From a virus, in IMG/VR virus record IMGVR_UViG_3300011115_000700, positions 1-30,374 of that record: a stretch of 30,374 nt of DNA. The stretch is one strand, 5' to 3'. This document shows positions 6,385 to 13,860 of the stretch, in pieces. Numbering within the stretch: position 1 is the first letter of the stretch; every line of letters starts with the position of its first letter. Below the pieces are notes generated by a model. That model was not told where the DNA came from, made no database searches, and saw nothing but the letters and a program-made list of their open reading frames with translations. The translations under genes were made by a program, and so were the position numbers.

Positions 6385-6687
6385 ATGGTGGGACTAACGC
6401 GATGCCGCGACCGCTGCGTAGAAGCACTCGCAACCGGAACGTGCAACTGCAAGACCTACTGCCGGGCAACTGGAGAACTCGGCCACCTTAGATTCCGCCG
6501 AACCTACACAGACGGCACCGGCCGCGTCACCGCCGTAACCGGACAGATAGGAACCGCACACGGAAGAGAAATAGCGGCCTGGACTGATCTTGCTGACAAG
6601 TGGAACCTAGAGCTGACAATACGCGGCTACTCACGAGTCGCGGATCACAAGTTCGAGGTCGAGTTTCGCCGGCGGGAGGAATCGTGA
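6385..6687 (+). CDS. Cysteine-containing hypothetical protein (100 aa)
   Basis: I use ATG 6385, preceded by AAGGAA at about 10 nt; an in-frame GTG at 6355 overlapping the previous stop would add ten residues. Four cysteines cluster within residues 7-26 (CRDRC, then CNCKTYC), a likely small zinc-binding element, followed by a beta-rich region. I do not recognise the family. The GTG of the next gene overlaps its stop. Confidence 0.55.
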   Translation: MVGLTRCRDRCVEALATGTCNCKTYCRATGELGHLRFRRTYTDGTGRVTAVTGQIGTAHGREIAAWTDLADKWNLELTIRGYSRVADHKFEVEFRRREES

Positions 6688-6875
6688 CTATTGAGGAGCG
6701 CCTACGAGCGCGTGGCATTGAGCCGACCAAAGAAGCCGTCGCTGCGTACCACGTAGCGCAGCGGATAGCCGACAACATCATCGCGGATCTAAACGCCGAG
6801 AACTTGAAGATGCATCGCTTGGAGTTTATGGGCGAGGACTGGAACGGCTTCAAGGGCAAAGAGAACAAGCCGTGA
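6684..6875 (+). CDS. Mini-protein, paralogue A (63 aa)
   Basis: GTG 6684 after a GGGAGGA Shine-Dalgarno, overlapping the preceding TGA; the longer in-frame ORF from 6600 lies inside the gene before it and is rejected. Its N-terminus, TIEERLRARGIEPTKEAVAA then YHVA, is clearly related to that of the next gene (TLEDKLRAAGITPTIDACAA then YRLA). The C-terminal half is helical and charged. Function unknown; the two were probably produced by local gene duplication. Confidence 0.6.
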   Translation: MTIEERLRARGIEPTKEAVAAYHVAQRIADNIIADLNAENLKMHRLEFMGEDWNGFKGKENKP

Positions 6876-7021
6876 CGCTAGAGGACAAACTTCGCGCCGC
6901 AGGAATCACGCCGACGATCGACGCCTGCGCCGCCTACCGCCTCGCGCTCGCAGACAAGTCCGCAAATGGCGACAATGCCCGTCCGCTACCGATCACAGTG
7001 TGGCAACCTAAGAAGCGATGA
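6872..7021 (+). CDS. Mini-protein, paralogue B (49 aa)
   Basis: GTG 6872 overlaps the TGA of paralogue A, and its TGA overlaps the integrase ATG. About 15 of the first 24 residues match paralogue A in the same positions, including the L-R-A-G-I-x-P-T core; the downstream parts differ, and this copy ends in a proline-rich basic tail (PITVWQPKKR). Placed immediately before the integrase, so a role in the integration or lysogeny decision (for example an excisionase-like helper) is conceivable but not shown. Confidence 0.55.
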   Translation: MTLEDKLRAAGITPTIDACAAYRLALADKSANGDNARPLPITVWQPKKR

Positions 7022-7965
7022 AGCTTGACCGCGCCATAGACCTCTTCATCTCCGACTGGCGCAGCTACGGACGGATCAACTCACCGCACACCGAGAGCGC
7101 CTACCGCCGGAAGCTAGAAGTCCTCGGTGAAGTATCGAACCGCCGGCCGGTGGAGAAGCTAGGCAAGGCCGATGTCAAAGAGGCGCTTCGGTCGTGGCCT
7201 AATCCAAACTCTGCGCTTCAGGCTCATTCCGTCTATACCGCGTTCTTTGATTGGTGCCTAGAGGAAGACATAAGGAAGACAAACCCTGCTCGGATGGTTC
7301 ACCGGCCTAAGAAGAAGCAGGCGATCATCACGCGGCTAACGCGGGCCGAAACGCAGCAGCTCCTAGAGTGGTCGATCACGGCGCCGCCGACCTACCGCTG
7401 GACGCTCTACCTCGGCGTCTGCGCTGGACTACGCAATCAAGAGCTCTGCCTGCTAGAGAAACGCGACTTAGAGCGTCCGGGGTTTATTCACATTCGCCAG
7501 GCGGCAGGGAAGGGGCAGAAGGAGCGGATCATCCCCGTCATCAGAGACTTGGAGCCGATCATTGACGAGATCCTTCAGGTCGGCCAGCCGGACGGAACGC
7601 TTCTCCGGGGCCGCGTTCAGGTTATGCCGCAGCGGAGCCTAGAGATGCGCGACAAAGCCTCCCCGATGAGCAGGGGCGGGATGTATAAGCTCGTTCAGCG
7701 CTCAGGTGAGCGCGCGGGCCTTCACGTACCGATCACGCCGCACACACTCCGACACGCCTTTGGAGACTTCGTAGCGAAGTACGCAGGATTACGAGTAGCG
7801 CAAGCCCTACTCGGTCACGCTTCGGTCGAGACGACCGCGGGAACGTATGTAGACCGCGTAGGGCTAGACGAGATGACCGTCGCTATGAGCGGCTTCTCAA
7901 TCTGGCAGGGGGTATCACTTGACAATCAACCGAATGAGCGAGGAGCTGGCAATAATGCGCGATAA
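7018..7965 (+). CDS. int: Tyrosine recombinase (phage integrase)
   Basis: 315 residues. An N-terminal SAM-like core-binding domain (about 1-90) is followed by the catalytic domain with all expected residues: R139 in AGLRNQEL, K165 in the GKGQKER turn, H242 and R245 in HTLRHAFG, H267 in LLGHASVETT and nucleophile Y277 in AGTYVDR. There is no arm-type DNA-binding domain, so it is a short, XerC/D-like type. It catalyses site-specific integration and excision between attP and a host attB. Its start overlaps the mini-protein before it and the next gene begins within its end, so no non-coding attP flanks the gene. The element is probably temperate. Confidence 0.93.
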   Translation: MKLDRAIDLFISDWRSYGRINSPHTESAYRRKLEVLGEVSNRRPVEKLGKADVKEALRSWPNPNSALQAHSVYTAFFDWCLEEDIRKTNPARMVHRPKKKQAIITRLTRAETQQLLEWSITAPPTYRWTLYLGVCAGLRNQELCLLEKRDLERPGFIHIRQAAGKGQKERIIPVIRDLEPIIDEILQVGQPDGTLLRGRVQVMPQRSLEMRDKASPMSRGGMYKLVQRSGERAGLHVPITPHTLRHAFGDFVAKYAGLRVAQALLGHASVETTAGTYVDRVGLDEMTVAMSGFSIWQGVSLDNQPNERGAGNNAR

Positions 7966-8179
7966 TGTAGATTTTCGGGACTCGACGAAGGAATGGGACG
8001 ACAGCCTCATAATGGGCCTCAGAAGGGGACTCCCGGAGCACAGCGGCGACGCTGAGGGAATCCTTGTTTCACTAGCCGGAGCGAAGGTGATACTGACGCT
8101 TGAAGACGGCGAGATGCTAGAGCTCGACCGCGTTGAGCTGATGGCGGCGCTGCAGCCGCCGCTTCGGGTAGCGGCGTGA
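7955..8179 (+). CDS. Hypothetical protein (74 aa)
   Basis: I choose ATG 7955 because AGGAG at 7941-7945 lies 9 nt upstream; in-frame TTG 7919 and ATG 7934 are alternatives that would overlap more of the integrase gene. The product is small and acidic with a beta hairpin-like stretch (VSLAGAKVILTLEDGEMLEL). No known family recognised. The stop overlaps the GTG of the replication gene. Confidence 0.55.
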   Translation: MRDNVDFRDSTKEWDDSLIMGLRRGLPEHSGDAEGILVSLAGAKVILTLEDGEMLELDRVELMAALQPPLRVAA

Positions 8180-8745
8180 GCTGGGCGAAGCTGGACGACC
8201 GCTTCCACTCCAACCCGAAGGTGAGTAGGGTTTGGCACACCTGCCCTTCGGCTATAGGGCTCTACGTTATGAGCATTACGCACTGCTCGCAGCACGAGAC
8301 TGACGGCAGGATTGACGAGTACTTCATCGTCGGCTTAGTGCCGGATCAGATGGCGCGTAAGGTGATTATTGACGCTCTAGTTGACGCGGGGCTTTGGATT
8401 ACGATTGAGGCCGGCGCGTATCAGATCCCGGACTATCTCGACTTCAATCCGAGCCACGCCGAGCAGGAAAAGCGCCGCAAGACTGAAAAGGCTCGTAAGG
8501 CTAAGGGCCGGAAAACTCAGGCTCAAACGAAAGATTCTGTCCGCGATCTGTCCGCGCGGACACTTTGCGCGCCGGGACAGCCGGACAACTTGCGCGCGGG
8601 GTCGGAGTTGTCCGGGCGTCCCGACCCGACCCGACCCGACCCGCTAGAGGGTTCTTACGCTTCAGAGGGTTCTTTCCTTGAAAGCGCTGGCGGCTCATAC
8701 CTAGCGGGAAAGACAATCGAGGCATCTAGGGGGATGACTGGATGA
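8176..8745 (+). CDS. Replisome organizer / replication initiation-like protein
   Basis: 189 residues, GTG start coupled to the gene before. Residues 1-95 (MSWAKLDDRFHSNPKVSRVW, then AIGLYVMSITHCSQHETDG, VDAGLWI and YLDFNP) match the N-terminal winged-helix domain of phage replisome-organizer/DnaD-type proteins. Residues 96-118 are a basic linker; the rest is low-complexity and contains a PDPTRPDP stretch. The expected C-terminal DnaC-like helicase-loading domain is absent or much reduced. The linker DNA carries the repeat cluster described separately, so the protein may bind its own gene, as lambda O does. Loading of host DnaB is inferred. Confidence 0.68.
   Translation: MSWAKLDDRFHSNPKVSRVWHTCPSAIGLYVMSITHCSQHETDGRIDEYFIVGLVPDQMARKVIIDALVDAGLWITIEAGAYQIPDYLDFNPSHAEQEKRRKTEKARKAKGRKTQAQTKDSVRDLSARTLCAPGQPDNLRAGSELSGRPDPTRPDPLEGSYASEGSFLESAGGSYLAGKTIEASRGMTG
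8537..8674 (+). repeat. TGTCCG repeat cluster, candidate replication origin
   Basis: Inside the replication gene. The hexamer TGTCCG, in either orientation, occurs five times in 77 bp: 8538-8543 (+), 8549-8554 (+), 8557-8562 (-), 8582-8587 (-), 8609-8614 (+). They build a tandem pair TCTGTCCGCG with 11-bp spacing (8536 and 8547), a 14-bp perfect palindrome (8549-8562), and a 10-bp perfect inverted repeat CCGGACAACT (8581-8590 and 8606-8615). Then come four CCGAC units (8621-8640) and a direct repeat AGAGGGTTCTT (8646-8656, 8664-8674). The layout recalls the lambda ori inside gene O. Repeats are seen; origin function is inferred. Confidence 0.5.
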
Positions 8746-8978
8746 GCTACCGCGAACTTCAAGAGCAGGGTAGGGTCGAACTAGAGCGATCAAAGGATCA
8801 GCGGTCACGTTCAATCTTCGACAGCGTTGAGGACTTCATCGCCTCGCGGCGAGAGTTCGACGATCTACCTGCCGGAGATCCGCACCTTCGGAACGCCGTC
8901 CTTTATTGCCGCCGTGAAGGGCTACCTATCGGCGCCGTCCTAACCGTCCGCAAGCAGATGGTGGCGAGATGGATCTAA
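8742..8978 (+). CDS. Hypothetical protein (78 aa)
   Basis: ATGA overlap with the replication gene. A charged, mainly helical protein (ELQEQGRVELERSKDQRSRS near residues 5-24). No visible catalytic motif. Being directly downstream of the replication gene it may be an accessory replication factor, but there is no sequence evidence for that. Confidence 0.55.
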   Translation: MSYRELQEQGRVELERSKDQRSRSIFDSVEDFIASRREFDDLPAGDPHLRNAVLYCRREGLPIGAVLTVRKQMVARWI

Positions 8979-9397
8979 CAGCGGAGCCGGAATACCTGAA
9001 GCTCGTCAACCTCCTACACCGCCTAGAGCTAAAGAGCCACACTTCCGCTCTCGTGATTGACGCTGACCGTGTATCGGGTGGAAGTGGGACGACAGGCAAC
9101 CGACCGCCAGGCGGGGCCGAGCGCAAGGACGACCGCGAGCCGGAGTATTGGCTTCGGTCTGTGACTCATTACCGCCGGCGCCTAAAGGGAGCCCGCAGCG
9201 TCAAGGCCGTAATGCTCATCACCGCTGACGTTGAGCGAACCTTGAAGGCGTGGGAGAAGGCGCCGGTTCCATCTGCTCCGTTGCCGGGGTCGCCGTTCTT
9301 CCGTCGCTACATCGTGGAGAGCGATAAGACAGTTGGCGAGCTCGCAAGATTGACCGGGGTGAGTAGGCAGTACCTACACCGGCTAAGGGCGGCATAG
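8969..9397 (+). CDS. C-terminal helix-turn-helix protein (142 aa)
   Basis: The ATG overlaps the end of the previous gene by 10 bp. The final 25 residues, TVGELARLTGVSRQYLHRLR plus AA, form a clear helix-turn-helix with the conserved A-x3-G and S-R at the turn. The N-terminal 110 residues are helical and basic, around YWLRSVTHYRRRLKG, with no known motif. A C-terminal HTH in a gene at the early/late border, just before a non-coding gap, is compatible with a late-gene or crossover regulator. This is an inference; the DNA-binding element itself is well supported. Confidence 0.62.
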   Translation: MDLTAEPEYLKLVNLLHRLELKSHTSALVIDADRVSGGSGTTGNRPPGGAERKDDREPEYWLRSVTHYRRRLKGARSVKAVMLITADVERTLKAWEKAPVPSAPLPGSPFFRRYIVESDKTVGELARLTGVSRQYLHRLRAA

Positions 9398-9476
9398 GTT
9401 CCGTCCGATCAGTTTGTCAACCTAGCCGTATCGTCGCACTCGTGCGCGATGAGCTACCGCAGACCAAAGATCCTCG

Positions 9477-9498
9477 GCGCCTAACCACCACGAGGCGC
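9477..9498 (+). promoter_or_regulatory. Inverted repeat in a 128-bp gene-free gap
   Basis: The gap 9398-9525 holds no credible gene. Within it GCGCCT (9477-9482) pairs with AGGCGC (9493-9498) around a 10-nt loop. No U-run follows, so it is not a textbook rho-independent terminator. I could not identify a convincing -35/-10 pair. The gap separates the replication block from the small genes before terminase, so it could be an operator, a processing site or part of an attachment site. Confidence 0.3.
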
Positions 9499-9525
9499 GA
9501 TAGCTGAAACGTAAGGGAGGCAGCC

Positions 9526-9699
9526 GTGACCATCGTCTGCCACAAGTACGCGAACGGCTGCGTCTGCCCGGATTGCCGAGTCACGATCAACCAGATCAAC
9601 GCTCACCGGCAAGCAGGCCGCAACCCGTTCACACCAGACGGCAAGATCAAACCACTACGAGCCAAGCCAAAGCCACAGCCCTGGGATCTCGCCGCATAG
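9526..9699 (+). CDS. Small cysteine-rich protein (57 aa)
   Basis: GTG 9526 preceded by a strong GGGAGG at good spacing; the stop TAG is followed at once by AGGAGG for the next gene. The first 20 residues contain four cysteines and a histidine (VCHKYANGCVCPDC), which suggests a tiny zinc ribbon or knuckle, followed by a proline- and lysine-rich tail. An out-of-frame ORF that begins at 9573 and spans this gene is a shadow. Function unknown. Confidence 0.55.
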   Translation: MTIVCHKYANGCVCPDCRVTINQINAHRQAGRNPFTPDGKIKPLRAKPKPQPWDLAA

Positions 9700-9708
9700 G
9701 AGGAACCA

Positions 9709-9900
9709 ATGCTCATCGACGTAGACCTCGGCAATCGTCAAGTCTTCGTCAAGGGCCACAGGCTCCATCACGGCCTAGTGGGAGCAGTAGCAATCCTCGC
9801 CGGCGCTGTCCTCGCAGTTCACGACCGACACGACCTTCACCGCTGGATACCAGACGCGCGCATAAAGCGGCCAACCTCTCAATCGAAGGGCCGAGAATGA
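9709..9900 (+). CDS. Small membrane protein (63 aa)
   Basis: ATG 9709 after AGGAGG, one of the best Shine-Dalgarno sites in the window. One hydrophobic segment, HGLVGAVAILAGAVLAVHD (about residues 21-39), predicts a single membrane span, with a short polar N-terminus and a basic C-terminal tail. Similar small membrane proteins are common in actinophages just before the terminase genes. Holin is possible but the lysis cassette is at the other end of the late operon. Confidence 0.6.
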   Translation: MLIDVDLGNRQVFVKGHRLHHGLVGAVAILAGAVLAVHDRHDLHRWIPDARIKRPTSQSKGRE

Positions 9901-10130
9901 GCGAGCCGATCTGGAAGATGACCGATGAAGGTTTCGCCGTCACGTTCATACCCGTCTCGGATGATGACGGACGCAATCACATCGCCATCGCAGTAGGCAC
10001 ACCGACACCGCGCGTCCTAGTCAGCCTGCTATCGAGCGAGGCTAAAGAGCGGGCGACAGCGCACATTGCTTTAGCGATGGTGGCGCACGACAACTTGGAA
10101 GCTAAGGGATTGACGTTTAGGAGTGGATGA
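9897..10130 (+). CDS. Hypothetical protein (77 aa)
   Basis: ATG 9897 overlaps the previous TGA. A longer in-frame ORF from 9573 would overlap two other coupled genes and is rejected. The protein has a beta-hairpin-like first half (KMTDEGFAVTFIPVSDDDGR) and a helical second half. No family recognised. Confidence 0.55.
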   Translation: MSEPIWKMTDEGFAVTFIPVSDDDGRNHIAIAVGTPTPRVLVSLLSSEAKERATAHIALAMVAHDNLEAKGLTFRSG

Positions 10131-10561
10131 TGGCGAAGATGCATCCGGCGACCCGCGAGAAGCGGATCAACTACTTGGCAGATCAGTGGAAGGACGATCT
10201 CTTCTCGGAGCTGCTGCTGCGGGGTAGGGACATTGAGGAAGCAGCCCTGGCGCTGAAGATTGACCAAACAGACGGGATTGTCTACTTCGTCCAGTGTGGA
10301 GATGGTGGCCCGATCAAGTTAGGTCACACGCGCCACGACATCAATAAGCGACTAGCTGCGCTCCAAACAGCTAACCCGTTCCTACTTACAGCACGACGCA
10401 CTATCCCCGGATCGCGGAGGCTGGAGTCAATGCTTCACAAGCACTTCGCCCGCGACATCATCCTCGGAGAATGGTTCGTCGCAACCGAAGAGCTAGCAGC
10501 GATGTGTGGGGGAACGCCGACACCGGCTGAGTTCCTAGCTGGAGGAGTTTCTAATGCGTAA
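10127..10561 (+). CDS. GIY-YIG nuclease family protein (MUG113/T5orf172-like)
   Basis: 144 residues; tandem ATGs at 10127 and 10130, the first overlapping the preceding TGA. After a helical N-terminus, residues 50-118 carry the diverged GIY-YIG pattern: GIVYFV (50-55), IKLGHT (63-68), R75 in NKRLAALQ, E100 in RLESMLHKHF and the end motif GEWF (114-117). This is the variant found in T5orf172/MUG113-type proteins, single-strand or structure-specific nucleases or just DNA-binding domains. It sits immediately upstream of terminase, so a role in packaging or as a homing-type element is possible. Confidence 0.75.
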   Translation: MMAKMHPATREKRINYLADQWKDDLFSELLLRGRDIEEAALALKIDQTDGIVYFVQCGDGGPIKLGHTRHDINKRLAALQTANPFLLTARRTIPGSRRLESMLHKHFARDIILGEWFVATEELAAMCGGTPTPAEFLAGGVSNA

Positions 10562-10961
10562 GAGCGATACAGATGTGACACCTAAAGGAGTGCAAGGCAA
10601 GCAGCGCAAGTGGAAGCCTGACTTCATCGCTGCGCTCTCAGAGGCCGGAACGGTCACGGAGGCTTGCCGCAAGTCTGGCGTATCGCGTACTACCGCCTAT
10701 CGCGCTCGTCAGCAGGATGAAGCCTTCGCGCTTCAGTGGGCGGACGTTGAGGAAGAGGGAACCGAGCTACTGGAGAAGGTCGCCGTTCAGCGCGCAGTTG
10801 ACGGCTCGGACACTCTGATGATCTTCCTACTGAAGAGTCGCCGTCCGCAGAAGTACCGGGAGAACGTGAAGATCGAACACGGCGGCGAGATCCGCACCGA
10901 CCTTGACGAGCTAACTAGGGATCAACTTCGTGAGCGCGCTCGCGTCCTCCTCGGAGAGTGA
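10554..10961 (+). CDS. terS: Terminase small subunit
   Basis: 135 residues, overlapping the previous gene by 8 bp after GGAGG. Residues about 22-58 contain a helix-turn-helix (AGTVTEACRKSGVSRTTAYR), followed by a helical oligomerisation region and an acidic C-terminal segment (ELTRDQLRERARVLLGE), the usual order for a TerS that recognises the packaging site and recruits TerL. The next gene is the large subunit, which starts inside this one. Family call rests on fold plus position. Confidence 0.78.
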   Translation: MRKSDTDVTPKGVQGKQRKWKPDFIAALSEAGTVTEACRKSGVSRTTAYRARQQDEAFALQWADVEEEGTELLEKVAVQRAVDGSDTLMIFLLKSRRPQKYRENVKIEHGGEIRTDLDELTRDQLRERARVLLGE

Positions 10962-12372
10962 GCTTCAGGCAGTAGTCGAAGCGCTTGATCGCAAGGACTG
11001 TCAAGCCTCTTCCGCTGACTTCATCGAGCGTCACTGCTTCATCGAGGAGCCGGACGGAACCGCCATCCCGTTCAAGCTCTGGCCCTTTCAGCGCGACGTT
11101 GTAGTTGCGCTAGAGGCAGGCGAGCCGGTGATCGTCCTGAAAGCTAGGCGGCTCGGCCTTAGCTGGCTAGTCCTTTGCTTCGCACTCTGGCTCGCCATCT
11201 TCAATCAGGGAACCCGCATCCTCGTCCTCTGTAAGACCGAGGGCGACGCGACCGAGCTGCTCGACCGTATCCGCCGCACTCTTGAACGTATCCGATCAGA
11301 TCCAGCAAGCCAGCACATCCTCTCCCGCCTGGAGCGTCCAGCGAAAGAGCGCGACGCGGTAAAGACTTTGGACGTTGGAGCCTCGACTATTCGAGCTCTC
11401 GTTGGAACGCCGGCAGCGGCCCGCTCTGAGACAGCAGGGCTCGTGATCGCTGACGAGTTCGCCTTCCAGTCACGGGCTGATGAAATCTGGCGAGCCTTGA
11501 CGCCGACCATCGACGGCGGCGGCAAGCTCGCAGTCGTCTCAACCGGCAACGGCCCGGACATCGGCGGCGGAACCGGCGCAGAGTTCGCGTCGCAGTGGAA
11601 CCGAGCAGTCAGCGGCGAGTCCACGTTGACGCCGTTCTTCTTCTCGTGGGACTCGCGGCCTGACCGCGATGAGGCGTGGCACAAGCGAACGCTCGCAATG
11701 CTTGGCGACATCGAGCGCTTCAAGACTGAGTACCCGTCAAAGCCCGCCGACGCTTTCACTAGCCCGGACACCGACCTTGTCTACGATCAGACACACCTAG
11801 CCGCAGCAGTAGCGCTCGGCAAGCAGTACGACGAAGGCGACGCACCGTCCGGCCCGCTATGGCTTGGCATTGACTGGGGCGTAAACACTCACGCCTTACT
11901 TGCCTACCGCACCGCAGGCGGCGGCCTCTACGTCTTCGCTGAAGTGTTCGACAACGGGCGCGACCTGGCAGTGACCACCGCCGCAATCCTTAGAGCGATA
12001 GCCGACACCGGGCAGCGCGCAGAGTACGAACGCTTCGACGCAGCCGAGCCGGTGATTCATACCGAGTTCCGCCGGCAGTTCAAGACCGCGACCGGCTACA
12101 ACCCGCGCTGGGGCTCAATCCCTTTCAACAAATACAAAGAGCTGGCCGTGAAGTACGCGACCTACCTAATGCGCCGCAGTCACTCGCAGGAGCCGTCCGC
12201 AGTCCTCGCCATCAGTCCTAAAGGCTGCCCGGAGCTAATCCGGCAGATGGGCCGCCTAGAGCGAACCGCTGACGGGAAGGTAATGAAGGGTGACGATCAC
12301 GGCGCCGACGCGCTGCTCACCTTGACCGCCGAGCCGGGCGAGCAGTTCGCCAACGTAACCGTCACCGACTAG
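10930..12372 (+). CDS. terL: Terminase large subunit
   Basis: 480 residues; GTG 10930 starts 32 bp inside terS. ATPase domain: an adenine/arginine-type motif near FKLWPFQRDVV (48-58), a Walker A variant KARRLGLSW (71-79), Walker B LVIADE (171-176) and the coupling motif STGN (204-207). Nuclease domain (RNase H-like): D315 in LGIDWG, E338 in FAEVF, D456/D460 in GDDHGADALL. The protein powers DNA entry through the portal and cuts the concatemer. The nuclease metal residues are intact, so it should be active. It is followed without a gap by the portal gene. Confidence 0.93.
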   Translation: MSALASSSESELQAVVEALDRKDCQASSADFIERHCFIEEPDGTAIPFKLWPFQRDVVVALEAGEPVIVLKARRLGLSWLVLCFALWLAIFNQGTRILVLCKTEGDATELLDRIRRTLERIRSDPASQHILSRLERPAKERDAVKTLDVGASTIRALVGTPAAARSETAGLVIADEFAFQSRADEIWRALTPTIDGGGKLAVVSTGNGPDIGGGTGAEFASQWNRAVSGESTLTPFFFSWDSRPDRDEAWHKRTLAMLGDIERFKTEYPSKPADAFTSPDTDLVYDQTHLAAAVALGKQYDEGDAPSGPLWLGIDWGVNTHALLAYRTAGGGLYVFAEVFDNGRDLAVTTAAILRAIADTGQRAEYERFDAAEPVIHTEFRRQFKTATGYNPRWGSIPFNKYKELAVKYATYLMRRSHSQEPSAVLAISPKGCPELIRQMGRLERTADGKVMKGDDHGADALLTLTAEPGEQFANVTVTD

Positions 12373-12381
12373 GAGCTTCCT

Positions 12382-13860
12382 ATCCCTAACTTCGCATACG
12401 CGCTCCTAAGCGAGCTAGACGCATCACCCGCCTGGCCGCTGAAGCGTGAACGTCACGCCATCGCAAGGGTTCAGCGCCGCCGCGCGTTCTACGAGCAGGA
12501 CGAGGCCGTGATCCGTTCGCTAGCCAACTGGGACATCCGCAGCCAAACCCTCTTCGTAGGTGACTCGCCTCGTCAGTACATCATCGACCCTTTGGCTTCC
12601 CGCATCGCAGAGGGCTACGGCGACTTCCTCTTCGGAGAGGACGTAGAGATCGAACCGGCAGCCCTTGACGGGGTTGAGGCCGCTAACGATCACGCCTTCC
12701 TAGAGAGCATCGTTGACGAGAACCACCTAGAAGCCGAGCTATGGACAGCCGAGACGCGCTGCATCAGCGAGGGCGAGGTCTGGTGGCACGTGTACGTCGA
12801 CCGTGAAGTGGCAGACGTTCCGCTCGTGGAGTGGGTCAGCCGCACGAGCGTCACTCCGCTTTACCGAGGGAACCGTCTTCTAGCTTGCGCTTTCGTCACC
12901 TGCGTAGCTGAAACAGACGACACCTACTACCGCCTCGCTGAGATCCACGCGGACGGGATCGTAGTCAACGTGCTTTACATCGGCACCGTCGACAAGCTCG
13001 GCAGGCGCGTAGAGCTAACGGCCCTACCTTTGACTGAGAGCCTTCTGCCCGAATGGCTGACCGGCCTGCCGATGCTCGCCGGCGTGGTCAAGAACGGCTT
13101 CAACATCCGAGGCAACCTCGGCTTTAGCGAGTACGACCGCATCGAAAGCCTTCTCCTGGAGCTGAACGAGGCGCGCACTATCGGCTCAGAGAACGCAAGG
13201 CTGACCGCGAAGAAGCGCCTCTTTGCCAACTCGTCAATCCTCGCAACCGACAGCTCCGGCGGGAACGCCTTCCCCGTTGGCGAGGACATCATCTTGACCG
13301 ACTCAGGCGGCGGGCCTATCGGCGGCGGCTCAGACAAGCCTCCAGTGACCGCAGTGGAATACAGCTTTGACGCTCTGCCGCTGATCGCTCACACGCAGGA
13401 GGTTGAGCGGACAATCCTTAGCCGCGTTGGACTCGTGCCGCAGTTCATCGGGACGGACGTTCAAGGTTCAAGCGACAGCGGGACAGCGCTCCGGCTGCGC
13501 TTCCTGCCAACCGTGAACGCAGCTCGCGCCAAGTCGCGCGAGTGGGAGTCAAAGCTGCCGTTGATAATGATGCTGGCGATGCTCGTCGATCAGATGCCGC
13601 TAGAGATGGGCGGCTTCGGACGCGAATACTTCACCGCAGGGCTCCGGCCATCCGTCAAGCTCGGCTCGGTTCTACCGACCGATGACGCCGAGCTGGTTCG
13701 CAACACTTCGCTAGCCGTCAGCTCGGAGATTATGAGCCGCGAGACAGCGATCAGCGAGCAGCATCCAGAGTGGGATCAGCAGGCCGTTCTCGAAGAGATC
13801 GACCGAATCCAAATAGACCTTTCCGGCGCGCCCGTAGTTCTGCCGCCGGCAGTGCAGTAA
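12382..13860 (+). CDS. Portal protein (start possibly ATC)
   Basis: From the first conventional start, GTG 12508, the protein has 450 residues; in the same frame it is open back to the terL stop at 12370. AGGAG lies at 12371-12375, and 6 nt later is ATC 12382, which would give about 492 residues. The added 42 residues (NFAYALLSELDASPAWPL then RRRAFYEQDEA) look like the usual portal N-terminus, with portal-type codon bias. The rest (about SPRQYIIDPLASRIAEGYGD, LVEWVSRTSVTPLY, then the GSSDSGTALRLRF segment) is portal-like. The ring is the DNA channel of the head. Conservatively, annotate 12508..13860. Confidence 0.8.
   Translation: MPNFAYALLSELDASPAWPLKRERHAIARVQRRRAFYEQDEAVIRSLANWDIRSQTLFVGDSPRQYIIDPLASRIAEGYGDFLFGEDVEIEPAALDGVEAANDHAFLESIVDENHLEAELWTAETRCISEGEVWWHVYVDREVADVPLVEWVSRTSVTPLYRGNRLLACAFVTCVAETDDTYYRLAEIHADGIVVNVLYIGTVDKLGRRVELTALPLTESLLPEWLTGLPMLAGVVKNGFNIRGNLGFSEYDRIESLLLELNEARTIGSENARLTAKKRLFANSSILATDSSGGNAFPVGEDIILTDSGGGPIGGGSDKPPVTAVEYSFDALPLIAHTQEVERTILSRVGLVPQFIGTDVQGSSDSGTALRLRFLPTVNAARAKSREWESKLPLIMMLAMLVDQMPLEMGGFGREYFTAGLRPSVKLGSVLPTDDAELVRNTSLAVSSEIMSRETAISEQHPEWDQQAVLEEIDRIQIDLSGAPVVLPPAVQ

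Follow-up and report, generated by a model that had tools for sequence, protein, structure and literature searches.

A probable replication origin, with a conserved CCC array, inside the initiator gene of a temperate phage

Does a dense cluster of short repeats within a replication initiator gene mark the site where a virus starts to replicate its DNA, or do the repeats serve some other purpose? The question is raised by the gene at the head of Table 1, in a stretch of viral DNA of 30,374 nt (the window, i.e., the whole stretch analysed). Its product matches phrog_2447, annotated as "replication initiation protein", at 1.6e-31 over residues 1–160 (the N-terminal domain plus the linker), with phrog_3926 second at 2.5e-20; its designation as a replisome-organizer or initiator gene in the sequence-only reading is thus borne out. 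The Pfam search of the product returned no family at an E value of 0.1, and hence no RepA_N profile match. AlphaFold2 predicts a winged-helix domain and a long helix (Table 1), and residues 130–189 form a low-confidence tail predicted to be disordered. The viral models nearest to the predicted structure in BFVD include phage replisome organizers. The top VIA-align rows include the RepA_N initiators 4pql (Z 7.6), 5kbj (7.3), 4pt7 (7.3), and 4pta (7.0), and unrelated winged helices reach similar Z; the likeness of the predicted model to solved initiators is at the level of the generic winged-helix fold only. A sequence search of solved structures found no relative, the weak matches being unrelated and mostly to helical or low-complexity regions.

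TGTCCG occurs five times within 77 bp (8538–8614), on both strands. Over the whole window, it occurs 19 times, against 17.6 expected from shuffles; its overall frequency is thus close to expectation, and its clustering is confined to 8538–8614, with no further cluster in the window. Five copies is the unique maximum over every 6-mer in every 77-bp window of the 30 kb, making this the densest 6-mer cluster present. In Markov sequences of order 2 and order 3 (120 trials), the maximum 6-mer count per 77 bp never exceeded four, and when the initiator gene was resampled with synonymous codons, five copies of TGTCCG arose in 0/20,000 trials and any 6-mer at five copies in 0/1,000. The cluster is beyond chance, and protein coding does not explain it.

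The architecture described in the sequence-only reading is present in full. TCTGTCCGCG occurs twice, at 8536 and 8547, as a tandem pair with an 11-bp spacing; positions 8549–8562 (TGTCCGCGCGGACA) form a perfect palindrome; and 8581–8590 (CCGGACAACT) forms a perfect inverted repeat with 8606–8615 (AGTTGTCCGG). The repeats, which had been assigned to a low-complexity linker, lie in and just before the predicted-disordered one. With the iterons beginning at about codon 121 and the CCC array described below at about codon 149, what the origin-like DNA specifies in the protein is the final part of the helix together with the tail.

Table 1. Coordinates of the gene, its predicted domains, and the candidate origin elements in the window, with arrays found in other initiator-like families.
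Feature	Position	Strand	Basis
Replication initiator gene, 189 aa, GTG start	8176–8745	+	PHROGs profiles; BFVD structural neighbours
Predicted winged-helix DNA-binding domain, residues 1–93	8176–8454	+	AlphaFold2, pLDDT 87–98
Predicted long helix, residues 94–129	8455–8562	+	AlphaFold2 model
Iteron core 1, TGTCCG, within TCTGTCCGCG 8536–8545	8538–8543	+	Word count, repeat search
Iteron core 2, TGTCCG, 11 bp past core 1	8549–8554	+	Word count, repeat search
Iteron core 3, TGTCCG, palindrome 8549–8562 together with core 2	8557–8562	-	
Degenerate sixth iteron core, TGTCCC (GGACA at 8575), amid the five exact ones	8574–8579	-	
Iteron core 4, TGTCCG, in left inverted-repeat arm 8581–8590	8582–8587	-	
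Iteron core 5, TGTCCG, in right inverted-repeat arm 8606–8615	8609–8614	+	
CCC array CCCGACCCGACCCGACCCGACCCG, five CCC triplets, 5-nt period, (CCCGA)n	8620–8643	+ (G-rich strand minus)	
AT-richer stretch 3' of the CCC array, direct repeat AGAGGGTTCTT (8646–8656, 8664–8674); candidate unwinding zone	8644–8690	.	GC content
Arrays in other initiator-like families	L131:9315–10208; L120:540–1334; L145:2039–2899; L225:2621–3526; L208	minus (L208)	

Immediately 3' of the TGTCCG repeats lies a perfect 5-bp tandem tract, CCCGACCCGACCCGACCCGACCCG, which the sequence-only reading had not recognised as a separate conserved element. A T-richer stretch with a direct repeat was said to follow; the two copies of AGAGGGTTCTT are indeed there, but the drop in GC is only mild (0.52 at 8649–8673 versus a window mean of 0.60). 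The window's own hairpin 3' of the array is at chance level.

Relatives were gathered by protein similarity alone from IMG/VR, GTDB genomes, and phage records. The main set comprises 84 non-redundant relatives (<90% identity), with counts on 83 or 78 loci where given; a second scan with another query provided a hold-out set of 49 relatives that are <85% identical to all earlier ones. By tblastn, relatives were found in 157 phage records of Gordonia, Mycobacterium, Streptomyces, Arthrobacter, Microbacterium, and Propionibacterium. At 189 aa, the window protein lacks the C-terminal part of typical 260-aa relatives, a part that is zinc-ribbon-like in 10/84; initiators of at most 146 aa were found in 17/84 relatives. 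A BLAST comparison of the window's two downstream ORFs with the downstream ORFs of relatives, looking for a shared partner gene, gave no match. One relative, L002, a contig of 13 kb that comes from a different sample, matches the window at 98.7% identity over 6.9 kb (6868–13742), and 83 of the 91 differences fall at 6500–6999 and 7500–7999, in or near the ends of the integrase gene; because none falls in 8176–8745, it provides no test of conservation.

Relatives with 28–48% identity retain repeats with an 11–12-bp spacing at an equal offset in the gene, while the sequence of the repeat has changed. The expectation that repeats would be kept where the protein drifts was thus realised, even 3' of shortened initiator ORFs. 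In the closest informative relatives (L003 and L015, 43–48% identical), four copies of CGGAGTCC lie at the same offset, three of them on an 11-bp spacing, and the centre CCGCGCGG of their palindrome GGACTCCGCGCGGAGTCC is identical to the centre of the window's palindrome; other relatives have different words in the same place, including GTGTCTCAC, GAGTCACG, GAACGTTCG, GTAACG, and GAAGCA. Over the 150 bp 5' of the array in 78 loci, 7-mer direct repeats were spaced by 11 bp in 33% and by 12 bp in 37% (controls, 1.4% and 5.0%), with additional peaks at 22–24, 33–36, and 45–48 bp. The hold-out set gave 33% at 11 bp and 62% at 12 bp over 40 loci (controls, 0.9% and 5.2%). Iteron type correlates with initiator identity (Mantel r 0.36), which is not proof of initiator–iteron binding, as it may reflect shared descent alone.

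In the comparison of relatives, the CCC array emerged as the best conserved of the DNA features. At least four CCC triplets at gene offsets 300–620 were found in 64/83 loci versus 0.9% of 2,797 control windows, and in 37/49 hold-out relatives versus 0.7% of control windows; 17/84 loci have only 2–3 chained triplets, and 6/84 have at most two. The array persists across relatives with 2–9 repeats, between the iterons and the AT-richer stretch. Internal C runs are exactly three long in 225/230, and the period is strongly 5. The spacers are mostly 2 nt, less often 1, 3, or 4 nt, and their sequences vary (GA, GT, AT, GG, AG, AA, TT, TA, and TG), with 34/65 arrays having non-identical spacers. Some relatives depart from the common form. 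L055, L064, and L007 have 5-bp arrays of TCCAT, TGGAT, or TCCAC at offsets of about 346–413 in place of the CCC triplets, and in L055, the GTGAGTCAC repeats are 3' of the array, not 5'. Reversed arrays (GGGAT or GGGTC on the strand of the gene) occur in L018, L022, L026, and L030 at offsets of about 330–460; in three of these four, the array lies in a second, overlapping ORF and encodes residues of DGMG type.

The tract might have no role as DNA: it would then be simply low-complexity coding sequence for a PTRPD linker, slippage-prone (phase-variable) or codon-driven. Slippage of 5-bp units would shift the reading frame, and the linker motif PTRPDPTRPD does recur. However, in nine relatives of the main set (L018–L020, L022, L025, L030, L036, L087, and L092), the repeats and/or the array are found 3' of the initiator stop codon, as are the arrays of the hold-out loci L286 and L314, and some arrays past the stop overlap a different ORF, where the residues they specify are unrelated. 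In L019, the sequence 3' of the stop codon has TGTCCG iterons identical to those of the window, and CCCGT units come after them. The units yield differing residues (PTQPN, GMGWD, and PVPSRPVPSR), and synonymous resampling of RPDPTRPDP restored five CCCNN units in only 392/200,000 trials. We rejected this explanation, which is highly improbable, because arrays are retained outside the initiator ORF and with non-identical units. Since the repeats and/or the array outlast the initiator ORF in about ten relatives, selection acts on the DNA and not on the protein; if the origin reading is right, recurrence of PTRPDPTRPD is a by-product of the DNA signal.

The 3' side of the array is likewise distinctive in relatives. 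In the main set, the GC content of the 25 bp starting 6 nt past the array is lower by 9.6 points (SEM 1.4), and in the hold-out set, it is lower by 15.3 points (SEM 1.3). Perfect hairpins of at least 6 bp occur past the array in 24/65 loci versus 6.3% of control 60-mers, often with the loop TGAC, TAAC, or TAC; in the hold-out set, hairpins of at least 7 bp were found in 14/37 versus 1.8% of controls. A group of relatives (L029, L062, L074, L088, L091, L093, L098, L100, L102, and L104–L106) has perfect hairpins of 7–11 bp directly past the array, whose stems differ while the loop is kept, mostly as TGAC, TAAC, or TAC. Such kept-loop hairpins might act as a signal for primase or for strand initiation.

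How the array might work within an origin can be approached from its pattern. One possibility is that the minus strand folds into a G-quadruplex, with an i-motif on the plus strand, and thereby keeps the origin open or controls the fork. The array fits G3N1–4 x4, the median G4Hunter score is 1.91 (at least 1.5 in 95% of arrays; 1.78 in the window), and by the run criterion (at least four G3 runs with 1–7-nt loops), the window has five runs and 64/83 relatives at least four. Furthermore, the loops drift in both sequence and length (2, 3, 1, or 4 nt; non-identical in 34/65) while the triplets stay. On the other hand, 17/84 loci, with 2–3 triplets, have too few for an intramolecular four-run fold; arrays of TCCAT, TCCAC, or TGGAT replace the CCC form in a few relatives; and C runs that almost never exceed three, together with the strong period of 5, look more like a register for protein or single-strand binding. 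Such a register would present single-strand or duplex binding sites every 5–6 nt to the initiator, SSB, helicase, or primase, a role comparable to that of repeats where other initiators hold an opened strand. The strict triplet length, the 5–6-nt period, the position between the iterons and the AT-richer stretch, and the range of 2–9 repeats are all consistent with it, but strand-specific binding is harder to reconcile with the few arrays that run in reverse, with the G-rich strand on top (L018, L022, L026, and L030). Because G4Hunter scores are high but 17/84 loci have only 2–3 triplets and triplet length and period are strict, we place the binding register slightly above the quadruplex, each of the two being less likely than not.

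An unbiased scan of IMG/VR for six CCCDD units gave at least 120 loci, and 47/122 arrays, among the matches listed, are in this initiator family. Five others, again among the matches listed, are in linker regions of further proteins, and profile searches of four of these gave matches to DUF1376/primosomal (L131), phrog_2509 (L120), phrog_9474 (L145), and, weakly, replisome organizer (L225). In these four and in L208, repeat-like sequence, judged by eye, lies just 5' of the array. The CCCNN arrays in other initiator-like families suggest sharing or convergence of an origin element. Most of the remaining arrays are in short ORFs or in sequence that is not phage-like; the array alone is therefore not diagnostic. 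The array is absent from relatives of the phrog_2509-type protein L120 (L231–L239), and its occurrence beyond the main family is therefore sporadic. In our estimate, the chance is about even that the CCC array is a working part of phage origins that has gone undescribed, one concerned with strand opening or helicase/primase loading, acting as a quadruplex or a binding register, kept through total turnover of the iteron sequence, and shared or independently acquired by initiators of the phrog_2447/3926, phrog_9474, phrog_2509, and DUF1376 types.

Complete phage genomes allow the locus to be seen in its context. In Footloose, GMA1, and Gudmit, the CCCGA array in the initiator gene is the sole CCC array of at least four triplets, and in Shoya and Melba, it is the sole regular one. 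In the window, a tyrosine integrase gene (7018–7965) is directly upstream of the initiator, 0.6 kb from the repeats, unlike the arrangement in the complete relatives. That proximity might suggest that the repeats are arm-type sites of the integrase and part of attP. However, in Footloose, Shoya, and Gudmit, the integrase is ~10 kb from the initiator, and the array is still in the initiator gene; for this reason we rejected attP arm sites, which are extremely improbable. The sequence-only reading had also looked to GC skew for a minimum at the site. Neither the window nor any of these five complete relatives has an extremum there, the extrema being elsewhere. To our knowledge, origins in phages of this kind are not reliably marked by GC skew, and the missing extremum thus neither places nor excludes an origin.

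Instead of an origin, the repeats might constitute an operator through which the initiator or the early operon is autoregulated. Replication initiators often repress their own expression, and a cluster of inverted and direct repeats would suit a winged-helix protein. The repeats, however, occupy offsets of about 360–440 nt in the gene rather than a promoter position, and the conserved array and the AT-richer stretch come after them. An operator in place of an origin is very unlikely, though operator function is possible as a second role beside it.

From the gene family, the repeat cluster, the conserved layout, and the selection on DNA, we infer initiator binding, duplex opening, and origin activity: positions 8536 to about 8690 are very probably the replication origin of this temperate phage, lying inside its initiator gene in the manner of lambda O or RepA_N. 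By analogy with lambda O, pSK41 Rep, and SPP1 gp38, the winged helix of the initiator would bind the TGTCC(G) iterons, whose helical-turn spacing would place it on one face of the DNA, to form a nucleoprotein complex; the duplex would then open, and host helicase and primase would be recruited, at the (CCCGA)n array and the AT-richer stretch. Because the linker encoded by the putative origin is predicted to be disordered, its protein sequence would be free to vary while the DNA signals are kept. If this is true, a lytic origin can be read from sequence as iterons plus a CCC array in an initiator gene, and this would apply to a large group of Gordonia, Mycobacterium, Arthrobacter, Microbacterium, Streptomyces, and Propionibacterium phages. 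The array would be a further kind of origin element, one whose DNA follows a strict pattern, and it could be tested in laboratory phages with established genetics. We found no description of a CCC array in the open-licence papers searched, although one may exist elsewhere, and no description of origins of integrating actinophages in the literature searched.

Origins inside initiator genes are already known, and the CCC array is the new part. Among actinophages, the RepA and RNA-based prophage origins of mycobacteriophages are replication origins whose cis sites are supposed to be in or next to repA, but those origins serve extrachromosomal prophages and RepA is dispensable for lytic growth (PMC7157519), whereas the window family is found in phages that carry an integrase. 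In the RepA_N protein pSK41 Rep, the Rep boxes, which lie in the middle of rep, are bound by an N-terminal winged helix of ~120 aa, the origin DNA encodes a dispensable linker, and a C-terminal domain binds DnaG (PMC5703833). The window protein similarly has its predicted winged helix at the N-terminus, with repeats inside the gene and an encoded linker; unlike pSK41 Rep, it ends after the linker and is without a Pfam RepA_N match. The SPP1 replisome organizer gp38 binds direct repeats in its own gene beside an AT-rich unwinding element (oriL), an arrangement that the window's repeats, inside the initiator gene and beside a mildly AT-richer stretch, resemble; SPP1 differs in having a second origin, oriR, and the accessible part of that account describes no CCC array (PMC6316719). 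In ori-lambda and its relatives in Stx phages, initiator-bound iterons in the middle of the O gene are followed by an AT-rich tract (PMC7466680). The window family likewise has its iterons within the initiator gene and an AT-richer zone after them. Its iterons, however, are GC-rich and 11–12 bp apart, the zone after them extends only a short way, and the two are separated by a CCC array, an element that the accessible portion of the lambda source (PMC7466680) does not name. Like the origins of the lambda O and SPP1 gp38 type, the locus has a cluster of short repeats in the coding region of its initiator, in a place that is conserved among relatives.
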